From: an uncultured Eubacteriales bacterium
GTDB lineage: Bacteria; Bacillota; Clostridia; Christensenellales; Aristaeellaceae
Assembly (NCBI GenBank): GCA_902764875.1
Contig: CACWXP010000014.1
Coordinates: forward strand, 1-64,000
Reading direction: 5' to 3'
Length of the DNA stretch: 64,000 nt
Positions 9,305 through 18,768 of the stretch are shown one piece after another. Both the position numbers and the translations under genes were made by a program. The notes beneath the pieces are model-generated. The model was not told where the DNA came from and did no database searches. It was given only the letters and a program-made list of their open reading frames with translations. Every line of letters starts with the position of its first letter. The stretch's first letter is position 1.

Positions 9305-10969
9305 TCAGATCATTTCCGGGTGCGTCTCAGCCAGCAGATCAAATCCTTTGTTCAGATCACCCTGCACGTCCTGAATGGTCAGCATGAAGACCGGCTCGGA
9401 AAGCTTGGGAATCTGTGTCAGCCGGGCTGAATGCCAGCTGATCCTGTCCTTTCCCATGCGCATACGGAAAATGCCCTGAATAAACTGGCCGGGACTGTTC
9501 CGGATGCGTTCCGTCATGGTGCTGAAGTCCATGAACTGCCTGAATTTCTCCTGATCTGCGGGATTCATCTGCTGCTCGCAGAACCGGAGCACGCTTTTCT
9601 CAAGCGTTTCCTCCCGGTCATAGGAAGGCAGGCTGCTCGCGGTATAGATCCGTTTCGCTTTCCTGCTTTCCGGATAAATCATCGTAACCAGTTCATAGGT
9701 GGTGAAAAGCGCGCTGCCGGCATCCAGCATCTCTTTTGCCGTTTTGACTTCCTGCTCCGCGTCAAAAGTATTCAGCCGCATCAGAATCATCGCGCGGCCT
9801 TCCCTTCTGGCGATAAACAGGGCGCTCAGCCTGTAATACACATCGTGATAAGCGTACTCAATCGTCTGGATCGTTCCATGCCGCAGCACGTCCATCACCA
9901 GTTTCTGAATCACCAGGTAGTAATGGCTCCTTTGATTGGACAAAGCGTTCTCCAGGCCGTCCACCGAAGTAAACCCAAGTTCCCGCAGCCGTTCCTTATA
10001 CCCCTCCGTGGCGTATATATAGCTGAACGATTCCCTGCCGCATTCTATCAGGGCAATCGAACCGTCATAGCTGCTCGCCCGGTCAACCGAAGCGTTCATT
10101 CGCCTTTCCGCGAATTCTTTCATCGGATTCGGATTCACGAAATTCACCCGGCCGATCTCGTTCCAGTATACCGCGTCTTCCTTTTTCTCCAGAATCCCCG
10201 GTTTTCGGTCAATCTGCTCCATCAGCGCCTCTTTGGAAAGCGGCCTGGCATAATAGAAGCCCTGCTGTGCCTCGCAGCCGACGTCCAGCAGGAATTCCCG
10301 CTGCTCGTTCGTTTCCACGCCTTCCGTCAGCGTATGAACCCCCAGCGTTTTCGCCATGCTGATCAGCGAAGCCAGCATATTTCTGCCCTTCGCGGACATT
10401 TTCCGCAGGAAGAGCATATCGAATTTGATGACGTCGAAGGGATAGTTCTGCAGCACGTTCAGCGAAGAATACCCGCTCCCGAAGTCGTCCAGCCAGACGT
10501 GAAAACCTTCGTCGCAGAAACGCCTGAACATGGCTTCGAACACATCCGTATCTTCCAGCATCACGCTTTCCGTAATCTCCAGTTTAATGGCTTCGTGGGG
10601 AACTGAGAAGCTGTCCAGCGCGGCGCAAATCTGTTCAAGCAGATCCTCCCGCGCAAAGTCCAGCCTGGAAAGGTTTACAGAAAGACCATTCAGCGGCGTG
10701 CCGCGCCGGCGGAGTTCGTCATACAGCGCGCAGGCCTGCCGGATCATTTCCATGTCCAGTTCAAAAATAAGCCCGCTGCGTTCCAGATCCGGAATAAAAT
10801 CTGCGGGGGAAATCAGGTTCCCGTCCGGATTCAGCCATCTGGCCAGCGCTTCCGCGCCCATAATCTGCTGTGTCAGCGATCTGAAAACAGGCTGAAACCA
10901 GGCCCGGATTCTGCCGCTTCCGAGCGCCTCATGAAACCGATCGGCAAAATCGGTCTGCTTGTTTTCCAT
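9305..10969 (-). CDS. EAL-domain cyclic-di-GMP phosphodiesterase
   Basis: Predicted to linearise c-di-GMP to pGpG. From the ATG at 10969 (GGGGG upstream) the protein is 554 aa and starts almost directly with the EAL domain (about 8-255). All metal and catalytic residues of the family are visible: the EAL glutamate (E40), N99 in VNLSRLD, E131 in EITES, D161-D162 in DDFGSGYSSL, K182 in IKFD, E216 in EGVET and Q236 in QQGFYYARPL. The C-terminal half (about 290-554) has a beta-rich, PAS-like look and may sense a ligand, an order opposite to the usual sensor-then-EAL layout. There are no membrane helices, so it is cytosolic. It is a single-gene unit. Confidence 0.9.
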   Translation of the reverse strand: MENKQTDFADRFHEALGSGRIRAWFQPVFRSLTQQIMGAEALARWLNPDGNLISPADFIPDLERSGLIFELDMEMIRQACALYDELRRRGTPLNGLSVNLSRLDFAREDLLEQICAALDSFSVPHEAIKLEITESVMLEDTDVFEAMFRRFCDEGFHVWLDDFGSGYSSLNVLQNYPFDVIKFDMLFLRKMSAKGRNMLASLISMAKTLGVHTLTEGVETNEQREFLLDVGCEAQQGFYYARPLSKEALMEQIDRKPGILEKKEDAVYWNEIGRVNFVNPNPMKEFAERRMNASVDRASSYDGSIALIECGRESFSYIYATEGYKERLRELGFTSVDGLENALSNQRSHYYLVIQKLVMDVLRHGTIQTIEYAYHDVYYRLSALFIARREGRAMILMRLNTFDAEQEVKTAKEMLDAGSALFTTYELVTMIYPESRKAKRIYTASSLPSYDREETLEKSVLRFCEQQMNPADQEKFRQFMDFSTMTERIRNSPGQFIQGIFRMRMGKDRISWHSARLTQIPKLSEPVFMLTIQDVQGDLNKGFDLLAETHPEMI

Positions 10970-11192
10970 TTCTGCTAACCCCCTGCAAAAGGTAAAATAA
11001 GATCGGTTTTTCTTTCCTGCTGTTCCGAAGATTTTTCTGAGTCGCTTGCAGTATAGCACAGTTCACCCAAAAACGCCAGCAGCAAAAAATTTTCTGTTTC
11101 AGCTGCCACAACAGTCTGTTCGTGCGTAAGAACTGATGAAGGACAGCAAATATCCGACAGAATAAGCCACGAAATTAAAGGAGGATGTCAAA

Positions 11193-11459
11193 ATGAAAAA
11201 CAAGGAACTGAACGTGACCGAAATGGAACAGATTGCCGGCGGTGCCAACAAGGGCGAACAGTCCCCGAAGGGCGGATCTTCCACGCCCCTGCCCGCCAAG
11301 AGCGGATGCAAGGTTTACCGGGTGGTCGGGGATGACAATCTTACCAAGATCGCCAGGAGCAACGGAACGACGGTCAATGCCATCATGGCGGTGAACCAGG
11401 GCATCATCACCAACAGGAACTTCATCCGCGCCGGTTTCTATATCTACGTCCCGGTCTGA
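11193..11459 (+). CDS. Leader-type LysM peptide (double-glycine leader plus LysM)
   Basis: An 88-residue protein in two parts. Residues 1-17 (MKNKELNVTEMEQIAGG) match the double-glycine leader of class II bacteriocins and similar peptides, which C39-peptidase ABC transporters cleave after GG. After a Gly/Ser/Pro-rich linker with a single cysteine (C39), residues 42-87 form one LysM domain (YRVVGDDNLTKIA, VNAIMAVNQ, IRAGFYIYVPV), a peptidoglycan/chitin-binding fold. No Sec signal peptide is present. AAAGGAGG precedes the ATG and a strong terminator follows, so it is a monocistron. A small exported wall-binding peptide is inferred; no dedicated transporter lies in the window. Confidence 0.8.
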   Translation: MKNKELNVTEMEQIAGGANKGEQSPKGGSSTPLPAKSGCKVYRVVGDDNLTKIARSNGTTVNAIMAVNQGIITNRNFIRAGFYIYVPV

Positions 11460-11477
11460 CAAACACCTGCCGGAATG

Positions 11478-11514
11478 AAACGGAGCTGTGATTTTTGCAC
11501 AGCACCGTTTTTTT
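11478..11514 (+). terminator. Terminator of the LysM peptide gene
   Basis: AACGG-A-GCTGTG (11479-11490) pairs with CACAGC-A-CCGTT (11498-11509), with one mismatch in the stem, followed by a run of seven T. It lies 20 bp after the stop codon, between two convergent genes. Confidence 0.85.
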
Positions 11515-11523
11515 GTCCTCTTT

Positions 11524-13293
11524 TTACATCCGGATCGTCAGCACGTTCAGCCCCAGCAGGTTCTGATAGCTCACATCCTTCGCAATCCTGTAAACCAGCC
11601 GGATCCCGACGTTTCTGCCCATGTCGTCCGCCTCCATCACCTTCTCCCGGGTGGCGGGATCAAAAGCCTTGCAGTTATCCCGCAGGCGCAGGATGATTTC
11701 GTCTCCTTTGTGAATCACCCGGATATCCACGGAATGTTTCTTCGAATCCTTTGAAAATCCGTGGGTTACGATGTTCCCGGCTATCTCCTCCATACAAAGT
11801 CCGGAGAAGAACGCCCGCTTCTTGTCGATACCCTTTTCTTCGCAGTATTCGATCACCTGCCGGGATATGGTCATCACCTCGTCCACGCTCCGTACCGTGA
11901 TGTCGATCCGTTCGTCCTCCGCCACTCCGATGTCTTGCGGAATGGCCAGCAGATCCTCCAGGTTCCGCGGAAACCGCTTCAGCGAGATCCAGGCCGCAAT
12001 CAGAATCACGACGAAGCACAGCACCCCGTTCAGCACGTTGGCGATATACAGTCCGTTCATCTGCATCGAAGGAATCAGCAGAAAACTGAACAGCACGACG
12101 CCCACCATCCCGTCGACCACCGGCAGAATCACGTTGATCGGCTTTTTCTCGGTGGTCTGGGCATAGCTGGCATAGATCAGGCTCCACATGGCCGGCAGCA
12201 TGCACAGCGGAAGAATCCGGAATCCCATCACCGTCATCATGTACACCGGATCGGAAGCGTCCCGGTAGTAAAGCTGTGTCAGCGGTTCCGCCAGCAGGAT
12301 CAGTCCCGCCACGATCACCGCCATGATCCCCATGCCCTTTGTCATGGCAATATGCATCGTGTCCACCAGCGACCGCCGGTCCTCTTCGCCGATGCTGATG
12401 CTGAACAGCATTCTGGCAACGGCCATCATGCCGAAGGGAACGGCCCAGACCACGGCCAGCAGCGAGTTGGAGGCGGCAAAGGCGGAAAGTCCGACGCTGC
12501 CGACATATTGGATCACCAGGAAATTGACGATCAGGCACCGGAACATCTCCACAAACCGGCTCAGCGCCCCCGGATAGCCGAGCCGCATGATCGCCGGCGC
12601 GTCCTCCCACCTTGCCGCCCGCAGCGAGAACTTCCATTCGGATTTTCCCCGGATGTACCACACGGCCATCACCGCCAGGAAGATCCAGTTGGCGAAGGAG
12701 GAACTCAGTCCCAGGCCGAAGGTGCCCATCCCGAGGCTCACAATGCACACATGATCCAGAACAGCGTTGGCCGCGAAGCACACGATGCTGGCCGTCATCG
12801 TTCTTTTGGTCTGATTCTCCAGTGAAAGGAAAGCAAACAGCTGCTGTCCCAATACCAGCGCCGGAATGCCGATGGCCTGCCCGAGAATGTAGTCGTTCAG
12901 CATTCCCAGGTCCGGCTCCTGGTCAATCAGGATCCGCGTTGCCCCGGTCACAACGCCGAGTACCAGCAGCAGCGAGGTCAGCAGCGCCAGCCCTGTGGAT
13001 ATCAGTACATTCACTGAAAAAAGGCCGTGAATCTTCTGTCGGTCCCGTGCCAGATACCGGCCGTAAAGGATCTGCGATCCGCTCACGAACATGATGCTCA
13101 TCGCGTAAAGAAAGTGGTTCATCGGTCCGAAAAGCCCGATGGCGCTCATGCCCGTCTTGCCGATCACGTTGCTGGCGTAGAGGCTGTCCACGACGCCGTT
13201 CACCGCAGAGATCACGATCAGCAGCACCTGATACGGCAGCAATCTGAAAAAAAGACCGCTCAGCAGCTTGTAATCCGAAGATCTTGTTTTCAT
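11524..13293 (-). CDS. MATE-family transporter fused to an anti-sigma-type ATPase domain
   Basis: 589 aa from the ATG at 13293. Residues 1 to about 450 carry about twelve membrane helices in the MATE efflux pattern (two six-helix bundles). The last about 135 residues are soluble and resemble HATPase_c_2/RsbW-type GHKL kinases: an N-box CMEEIAGNIVTHG at about 500-512, a G1-like LRLRDNCKAFDP at about 537-548, and MGRNVGIRLVYRIA near the end. MATE pumps export drugs or metabolites by ion antiport; RsbW-like domains bind ATP and inhibit or phosphorylate partners. Putting both in one chain suggests a pump that senses or signals. The N-box asparagine and the G1 aspartate are present, so ATP binding is plausible. 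No partner anti-anti-sigma gene is adjacent. Confidence 0.85.
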   Translation of the reverse strand: MKTRSSDYKLLSGLFFRLLPYQVLLIVISAVNGVVDSLYASNVIGKTGMSAIGLFGPMNHFLYAMSIMFVSGSQILYGRYLARDRQKIHGLFSVNVLISTGLALLTSLLLVLGVVTGATRILIDQEPDLGMLNDYILGQAIGIPALVLGQQLFAFLSLENQTKRTMTASIVCFAANAVLDHVCIVSLGMGTFGLGLSSSFANWIFLAVMAVWYIRGKSEWKFSLRAARWEDAPAIMRLGYPGALSRFVEMFRCLIVNFLVIQYVGSVGLSAFAASNSLLAVVWAVPFGMMAVARMLFSISIGEEDRRSLVDTMHIAMTKGMGIMAVIVAGLILLAEPLTQLYYRDASDPVYMMTVMGFRILPLCMLPAMWSLIYASYAQTTEKKPINVILPVVDGMVGVVLFSFLLIPSMQMNGLYIANVLNGVLCFVVILIAAWISLKRFPRNLEDLLAIPQDIGVAEDERIDITVRSVDEVMTISRQVIEYCEEKGIDKKRAFFSGLCMEEIAGNIVTHGFSKDSKKHSVDIRVIHKGDEIILRLRDNCKAFDPATREKVMEADDMGRNVGIRLVYRIAKDVSYQNLLGLNVLTIRM

Positions 13294-13406
13294 GGTGAAA
13301 TACCTTCTTCCGCGGCAGGACATGAACGTCTGATACCCCGTCTGCTGCCCCCGTATTGTACCACATTCCGCTCCCGAAAAAAAGCAGTATGAAAACGGTC
13401 GCCGCC

Positions 13407-17404: not shown

Positions 17405-18768
17405 TACTTCTTCACCTCAATCAGATGGCCGCTTTCCTTCATGGCTTCAATGATCGCGTCCACGTGTTTTTCACATTCCTTGGTGCTTCCGGCTTCGGCC
17501 ATCACCCGCAGCACGGGTTCCGTTCCGCTCTTGCGCAGCAGCACCCGTCCGCTGTCGCCAAGGGCTTCGGTACAGGCGTTCACCGCGTCCATCACCTTCT
17601 GTTCCGCCAGTGTCTCATCCTTGTCGTCCACCTTCACGTTCTTCAGCACCTGGGGATACATCTTACATCCCTCGGCCAGTACGGAAAGGGGCAGCTGTGT
17701 GTCCGTCATCACGCCCATCAGCATGATCGCCGTGATGATGCCGTCGCCGGTCCGGGCGTGCTTGCGGAAGATGATGTGTCCGCTCTGTTCTCCGCCGATC
17801 AGGTGGTCGTAGGCCTTCATGTTCTCGTATACATACCGGTCGCCCACCGCGGTCTTTTCATAGTTGATGCCGGCCGCGTCCAGCGCCTTATACAGTCCGA
17901 AGTTGCTCATGATCGTGGTCACCACGGTATTGCTGGGCAGCATGCCTTTGCTCTTCATGTACTTGGCGCAGATGTACATGATCTTGTCGCCGTTCACTTC
18001 GTTGCCGTTCTCGTCCACGGCCAGGCAGCGGTCCGCGTCGCCGTCAAAGGCAAAGCCCACGTCCAGCTTGTTTTCCTTCACATACTGCTGCAGGCTTTCC
18101 AGGTGGGTGCTGCCGCAGTCCTTATTGATGTTCAGTCCGTCGGGCTTGTCGTGAATCACATAGGTCTTGGCGCCCAGGGCGTTGAAAACCGCCGGTCCGA
18201 TCATCCAGCTGCTGCCGTTGGAGCAGTCCAGCGCCACCTTCCGGTCGTTGAACGGCCGGATCGCCAGGTTCGTCAGGTATCCGATGTAGCGGTTCCGTCC
18301 GGTGTAGAAGTCCACCGTGCATCCGATTTTGTCCGCCGTGGCAAACGGAATCTCTTCCGTTTCCCCGTCGATGTACTTCTCAACCTGGTTCTGCAGGTCG
18401 TCGTCCATCTTTTCGCCGTTGTGGTTCATCAGCTTGATGCCGTTGTCGTAGAAATGATTGTGGCTGGCGGAGATCATCACGCCGCAGTCGAATCCTTCCG
18501 TCCGCGTGATATAGCTGACGCAGGGCGTCGTCGTCACGTGAAGCAGGTAAACGTCCGTGCCCGAGCTGGTGATGCCCGCGGCCAGCGCGTTTTCATACAT
18601 ATAGGAAGACCGGCGGGTATCCTTGCCGATCACGATCTTTGCCTTGTCGTCCAGATGTTTTTTGGCGTAATACCAACCGAGGAAGCGTCCGGTCTTGAAC
18701 GCATGTTCGGCCGTCAGGTTTTCTCCCGCTTTTCCGCGGAATCCGTCCGTTCCGAAATATTTACCCAT
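17404..18768 (-). CDS. glmM: Phosphoglucosamine mutase
   Basis: Interconverts glucosamine 6-phosphate and glucosamine 1-phosphate for peptidoglycan precursor synthesis. The 454-aa chain shows the full alpha-D-phosphohexomutase pattern: YFGTDGFRG at the N-terminus, the phosphoserine loop GVMISASHN (about 96-104), the metal loop FAFDGDADR (about 239-247), the sugar-binding loop GGEQSGH, and the phosphate-binding RKSGTEPVLRVM near the C-terminus. A consensus promoter lies just upstream. It heads the glmM-acyltransferase(-nagB) cluster. Confidence 0.95.
   Translation of the reverse strand: MGKYFGTDGFRGKAGENLTAEHAFKTGRFLGWYYAKKHLDDKAKIVIGKDTRRSSYMYENALAAGITSSGTDVYLLHVTTTPCVSYITRTEGFDCGVMISASHNHFYDNGIKLMNHNGEKMDDDLQNQVEKYIDGETEEIPFATADKIGCTVDFYTGRNRYIGYLTNLAIRPFNDRKVALDCSNGSSWMIGPAVFNALGAKTYVIHDKPDGLNINKDCGSTHLESLQQYVKENKLDVGFAFDGDADRCLAVDENGNEVNGDKIMYICAKYMKSKGMLPSNTVVTTIMSNFGLYKALDAAGINYEKTAVGDRYVYENMKAYDHLIGGEQSGHIIFRKHARTGDGIITAIMLMGVMTDTQLPLSVLAEGCKMYPQVLKNVKVDDKDETLAEQKVMDAVNACTEALGDSGRVLLRKSGTEPVLRVMAEAGSTKECEKHVDAIIEAMKESGHLIEVKK

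Follow-up and report, generated by a model that had tools for sequence, protein, structure and literature searches.

In some little-studied Clostridia, small wall-binding peptides appear to be sent out by a bacteriocin-type exporter, and a dedicated regulator probably turns on their genes jointly. Each component (Gly-Gly leader, C39 exporter, NHLM system, LysM domain) is already known; what is new is a set of Gly-Gly peptides that carry a folded wall-binding domain. The initial annotation knew of no described family with this layout, and in the open literature we likewise found no description of a LysM or peptidoglycan-binding domain behind a Gly-Gly leader. In the available passages of PMC3482391, LysM refers to toxin proteins, and in those of PMC5524665, LysM belongs to a separate gene and the term double-glycine stands within a reference.

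A LysM domain behind a double-glycine leader

The window, that is, the whole 64,000-nucleotide stretch of DNA that was analysed, carries the gene at 11193..11459 on the plus strand, with coordinates, strand and translation as first reported. The gene starts with ATG behind a ribosome-binding site (AAAGGAGG, 11177..11184, plus strand) and its translation, read alongside its paralogues, gives a Gly-Gly-leader LysM precursor of 88 residues. Three parts follow one another on the same strand: the 17-residue double-glycine leader MKNKELNVTEMEQIAGG (residues 1-17, 11193..11243), for which a cut after Gly17 is predicted; a basic Gly/Ser/Pro/Lys linker containing Cys39 (residues 18-41, 11244..11315, from translation and model); and the LysM domain (residues 42-87, 11316..11453, from Pfam and from the model with Foldseek). 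The leader satisfies the double-glycine rule, with Leu, Met and Ile at positions -12, -7 and -4 and Gly at -2 and -1. The gene stands alone between two minus-strand neighbours, a MATE-HATPase fusion (11524-13323) and what looks, by eye, like an EAL-domain protein (9305-11059). A terminator-like hairpin followed by a T run (11485..11503, plus strand) is compatible with a single-gene unit; with one found against 0.8 in shuffles, it is weak taken alone.

The single LysM domain that had been recognised from the letters was recovered as a PF01476 match (E 3.9e-8; 33.6 bits against a Pfam gathering cut-off of 20.9). An AlphaFold2 model, whose confidence exceeds 90 over the greater part of LysM and is low over the leader, takes the beta-alpha-alpha-beta fold (E39-43, H50-56, H61-67, E83-87). 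When this model was searched with Foldseek, the first seven rows were LysM domains at probability 1.00 (best E 5.8e-3), none of the E-values falling under 1e-3 for a domain so short. By Pfam score and predicted fold, the peptide is a LysM member, and the mature form would be expected to bind peptidoglycan. The same fold occurs in wall enzymes such as the autolysin AtlA (PDB 2mkx, among the Foldseek rows), but no enzyme is attached here. The linker and its one cysteine, also part of the first description, hold for the window peptide; the cysteine is no family feature, occurring in 26 of the 66 distinct cores, and a conserved cysteine as a family trait is ruled out.

Does the leader reflect more than a chance likeness? 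The pattern M-x(2-20)-L-x4-[LM]-x2-[ILVA]-x-GG, sought at the head of ATG frames of 40-150 aa, matched once in the window, at the LysM gene itself, against a mean of 0.175 in 40 first-order Markov copies. Conservation is stronger evidence than this count. The leader is the most conserved part in a 34-row alignment whose rows had been chosen for a Gly-Gly leader (3.10 bits per column vs 2.57 for LysM and 2.14 for the linker). A leader-blind Pfam LysM search of seven genomes, selected as holders of such peptides, gave 35 matches, of which 34 were over the cut-off, all in frames of 76-175 aa; Gly-Gly preceded LysM in 34/34, so every over-cut-off LysM domain in the seven chosen genomes has this layout. 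The -4 residue was I, L, V, M, A, F or N in 33 of these and T in the remaining one; position -12 did not hold a large hydrophobic residue in all of the 34. The first 17 residues, which the initial annotation had read as a leader, are thus conserved both in the five paralogues of the genome and in the leader-blind set, and with the Markov copies these 34 domains rule out a chance likeness.

Short LysM frames from other families, drawn from the order, class and phylum match lists (a 49-aa frame in G313 left out), served as a control: a Gly-Gly leader was present in none of the nine readable frames, ten having been opened and the tenth (L268) being masked. Across distinct short LysM frames, Gly-Gly was found in 70 of 77, a proportion that is not leader-blind because many loci came from a leader-bearing profile. 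Among the seven frames without it, those of L018, L025 (two frames), L050 and L065 are truncated, masked or broken, and those of L117 and L140 are leaderless.

The genome of the window (G000, 93% complete) contains five paralogues scattered over five contigs, all with leader and LysM domain. A family-level profile search of 200 genomes revealed more such peptides, often several per genome and in arrays, and at least 20 Gly-Gly-LysM genomes were counted by eye, 19 from this search and one (G117) from the order search; a look for short single-LysM peptides with a GG leader, as first suggested, therefore uncovered a family. Nine loci come from named genomes, in records titled Clostridia, Clostridiales and Christensenella sp., and NCBI assigns Christensenella sp. 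UBA4379 to Christensenellales. In the order sample (297 genomes), leader-plus-LysM short frames occurred in the family itself and in G208, a genome of another family. In the class and phylum samples (391 and 398 genomes), inspection by eye found no short frame outside the order with a match starting in the leader among the matches listed. The cargo is not always LysM: G208 also has two tandem Gly-Gly peptides with an SH3_3 core (E 5e-10 and 3e-12; L167:10602-10892 and 10938-11201).

A LahT-like C39 exporter in the same genomes

A C39-peptidase ABC transporter, proposed at the outset as the companion of such a leader, is present in the genome of the window, where one C39 match is over the cut-off and two more are under it. 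On contig C7, the ABC protein carrying C39 is NHLM_micro_ABC1 (TIGR03796, 902 bits vs a cut-off of 853.3) and the adjoining partner falls just under the cut-off of TIGR03797 (708.7 vs 709.4 bits). The adjacent 169-aa protein, called HlyD-like from its position and look only, has no NCBIfam match at 1e-5, the TIGR03794 HlyD-like partner included, and no Pfam match at 0.01. The C7 peptidase is identical to LahT (PDB 6mpz) at 104 of 144 positions (72%), and its triad Cys27/His101/Asp117 is intact.

According to the available passages of PMC6363468, LahT is a proven Gly-Gly protease that cleaved the leader off seven substrates, differing widely in their cores, on which it was tested; a charge at -4 or -7 is detrimental to its cutting, and a V-4T mutant was processed. 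The corresponding positions -4, -7 and -12 of the window leader are Ile, Met and Leu. Our system thus resembles that of LahT (an AMS/PCAT transporter of Lachnospiraceae C6A11) in peptidase, triad and leader positions, whereas the LahT cluster, in the same passages, has nine precursors with Nif11-type leaders, in place of the scattered wall-binding domains found here. The likeness to NHLM/NHLP export (TIGR03794, TIGR03796, TIGR03797; PMC2887384, in its accessible passages) lies in the ABC1 with C39 over the TIGR03796 cut-off and the ABC2-like partner beside it. It may extend to gene order: those systems may encode their precursors away from the genes for modification and export, possibly as in the genome of the window, where the peptide genes are far from the exporter, no exporter genes were noticed beside the paralogues, and this distance counts against the explanation that we favour. 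Unlike in NHLM systems, the leader is short (17 aa) and not nitrile-hydratase- or Nif11-related, the cargo consists of a folded LysM domain, the system has an ECF sigma gene linked to it, and no NCBIfam family accounts for the small HlyD-like protein.

Synteny in one relative brings exporter and peptides together. In G117 (L163), a single strand carries in succession genes for a SpoIIE-HATPase protein, an HlyD-like protein, ABC1, ABC2, a small protein with a leader-like AAG motif (the AAG protein, see below) and an ECF sigma factor, then one gene and two Gly-Gly-LysM genes. G208, from the other family, has a TIGR03796 exporter over the cut-off. Among the 200 genomes, a C39 match (E<1e-20) was found in 17/20 Gly-Gly-LysM genomes vs 60/180 others (16/19 without G117); the nominal p is 1e-5 with kinship ignored, and Fisher values of this kind overstate independence because the genomes are related. 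The exporter was missing in three of the 20, G004, G083 and G198 (75, 87 and 72% complete), none of which has a TIGR03796 match over the cut-off. Read from sequence, the coincidence of exporter and peptide genomes, the G117 synteny and the conserved leader argue for the bacteriocin-type export that was first suggested. The predicted route therefore differs from that of AtlA-type autolysins: it is a C39 exporter and not Sec, by which autolysins are exported.

A common promoter-like site, an ECF sigma gene and the AAG protein

Many of the scattered genes have a common upstream element, CTGCCA, 15-16 bases and CGTATA, which in LysM genes lies mostly 85-115 bp before the start; CGTATA placed 16 bp behind the first hexamer is an arrangement that we take to be reminiscent of sigma-W-type promoters. 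The window copy is an ECF-type promoter-like site, CTGCCA-N16-CGTAAG (11103..11130, plus strand), 90 bp 5' of the start codon, a distance similar in paralogues C8, C18 and C30; its second hexamer is weak, differing from CGTATA at two positions. No sigma-70-type site was found in window 11000-11560.

The site is shared, at sequence level, by more than half of the LysM genes: 42/69 carry it at up to two mismatches and 37/69 at up to one, against 0/69 for the reversed control. These 69 are what remains of 70 Gly-Gly-LysM genes after one with too little upstream DNA was left out, and they include the genes where the motif was first seen, several of them near-identical. At two mismatches, the site is absent in 27/69, including paralogue C23 and the G117 pair. 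Within the genome of the window, CTGCCA-N15/16-CGTAT has 14 exact matches vs 1 for the reversed control. Three of these precede LysM peptides (C8, C18, C30), three precede other Gly-Gly peptides (C11, C43, C48), one precedes an AAG-protein gene (C20), two precede proteins that look Sec-exported by eye (C1, C17), and the rest precede nothing clear.

The AAG protein (60-79 aa) carries the motif ELSxDEMExVxAAG, which is leader-like with Ala-Ala for Gly-Gly. On contig C7 its gene (L014:14705-14943; also L185) and an ECF sigma gene (Sigma70_r2, E 1e-16) lie directly behind ABC2. The promoter motif was not found at one mismatch before this exporter/sigma operon, and the AAG gene of the same genome that does have the site (C20) has no sigma gene after it. 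Across genomes, the site precedes 21/29 AAG-protein genes at up to two mismatches and 20/29 at up to one (reversed control 0/29); an ECF sigma gene then follows the AAG gene in 19/29, and the site (at up to one mismatch) and the ECF gene occur together in 15/29. These counts start from 30 loci, of which L241 was left out as it gave no start, and L242, which is misplaced, is yet among the 29. In G103, a Gly-Gly peptide gene of another kind than LysM has the site upstream and is followed by HlyD-like, ABC1 and ABC2 genes. Taken as sequence associations, the G103 and AAG data tie sigma factor, exporter and peptides to one another, and this ECF sigma would be the one that reads CTGCCA-N15/16-CGTATA. 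Among the open-literature titles listed, none pairs an ECF sigma factor with double-glycine or C39. The wall peptides and the exporter-linked sigma factor seem to share one promoter, and the regulon is therefore directly testable.

AAG proteins occur in 49 of the 200 family genomes, 18/20 with Gly-Gly-LysM and 31/180 others; a C39 exporter is present in 43 of the 49. Of 60 AAG genes, 16 (in 15 genomes) have a C39 exporter no more than 10 kb away, where a rough estimate based on a genome size of 3 Mb predicts 0.55. A matrix of the LysM-leader positions -13 to -3, which excludes the Gly-Gly, was used to scan 29 AAG proteins (here L242 was dropped and the C7 copy added). The best matrix window was followed by Ala-Ala in 29/29, as AAG in 28 and as AAQG in one. 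In 23/29 it scored higher than any of 200 shuffled versions of the protein concerned; in each of the remaining six, between 1 and 9 shuffled versions scored as high. Searches of Pfam and NCBIfam at E 0.01 gave no match for the C7 AAG protein, and the structure model of the AAG protein is poor (mean pLDDT 61). Judged from its sequence, such a leader mimic could bind the C39 groove while offering no Gly-Gly cutting site. A tentative extension, which we rate as possible and well short of likely, is a self-monitoring export regulon with the LysM peptides as cargo, in which the AAG protein fills the C39 groove uncut, so that sigma activity depends on how much precursor or exporter is free. If true, the load on the exporter would be sensed in a new manner, by means of the mimic.

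A proposed path from precursor to wall

The explanation that we favour, and hold to be fairly probable, is that the precursor is made on the command of an ECF sigma factor, cut after Gly17, exported and bound to peptidoglycan. An ECF sigma factor recognising CTGCCA-N15/16-CGTATA would drive the LysM gene together with other scattered Gly-Gly peptide genes. The leader helix would then dock Leu-12, Met-7 and Ile-4 in the C39-domain groove of an NHLM-type exporter, predicted to be the C7 ABC1 working with ABC2 and the small HlyD-like protein. After a cut by the C39 peptidase behind Gly17, the ABC pair would export a 71-residue basic peptide (7.5 kDa, or 7527.5 Da for the unmodified core; pI 10), which may bind peptidoglycan outside the cell through its LysM domain. 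There it would most likely coat or tune the wall of the producer (or of a neighbour) and not kill. Coating or tuning is favoured over killing because of the basic core, the several copies, the ECF-type promoter and the fact that no immunity partner was noticed; of all steps in the mechanism, this action at the wall is the least secure, and the benefit is one that we infer. If this holds, C39 exporters would serve beyond bacteriocins, pheromones and modified peptides by placing folded wall-binding domains outside the cell, and the C39 route would have taken over LysM export in these bacteria.

Alternatively, the exported LysM peptide might be a bacteriocin that harms neighbours by binding their wall or blocking their wall enzymes. 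In favour are the bacteriocin-type leader, the basic cores (median pI 9.9 over 66 distinct cores) and one locus (L049) where a LysM peptide has in its vicinity GxxxG bacteriocin-like peptides (L049:9214-9507, 10377-10944 and 17457-18069) whose leaders are almost identical to its own. We nonetheless consider a bacteriocin improbable: by eye, none of the five copies in this genome, that of the window included, was seen to have an immunity-like neighbour, and a LysM domain by itself is not known to be lytic. Class II bacteriocins (PF10439, TIGR01847) are alike in leader type, but the core here is LysM, and even with E allowed up to 10, neither Pfam nor NCBIfam links the window peptide to any bacteriocin family.

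A still less probable origin lies in prophages, whose wall-binding peptides might block the adsorption or the lysins of rival phages (superinfection exclusion). Phage genes do lie close to some members, which are placed as cargo genes would be: an SH3-like Gly-Gly gene is flanked by genes for phage head and neck, to which it runs antisense (L161, contig C39 of the genome of the window), its SH3-like match at L161:1293-1553 being weak and under the cut-off (E 0.12); the LysM gene on contig C18 (L010) sits beside a portal-like fragment (phrog_146, E 5e-8); and the two bacteriocin-like Gly-Gly genes at L049:17457-18069 are among phage genes. However, no phage gene was noticed by eye at the window or at three of the four other LysM loci of this genome, the LysM gene of L049 is separated by 2.8 kb from the closest of the phage genes searched, and viral contigs gave 37 stretches fitting a pattern but no confirmed relative.

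That the peptide is instead a RiPP, chemically modified before export with the LysM part only a scaffold, seems to us very improbable: its leader does look like the Gly-Gly leaders of modified peptides and gives weak, mostly leader-borne matches to TIGR04149 (E 0.16) and PF14406 (E 0.25), far under their cut-offs, but the cysteine is not conserved, the LysM part is conserved and predicted to be well folded, and no modification gene was noticed by eye beside the copies of this genome.

Apart from the LysM family, two Gly-Gly proteins of one kind (121-124 aa) were seen, one on contig C1 of the genome of the window (L160:2105-2479), with no Pfam or NCBIfam match, and one that adjoins a LysM peptide (L067:9064-9609). 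Two short Cys-rich peptides, possibly modified, are encoded on the minus strand at L172:11145-11282 and 11497-11649, with a Gly-Gly leader-like start (AAAGG). Finally, a MATE protein with a HATPase-like end, the latter read by eye, is encoded directly before NHLM exporter genes (L014:7295-9163), and a link between it and the MATE-HATPase fusion next to the window LysM gene is possible.
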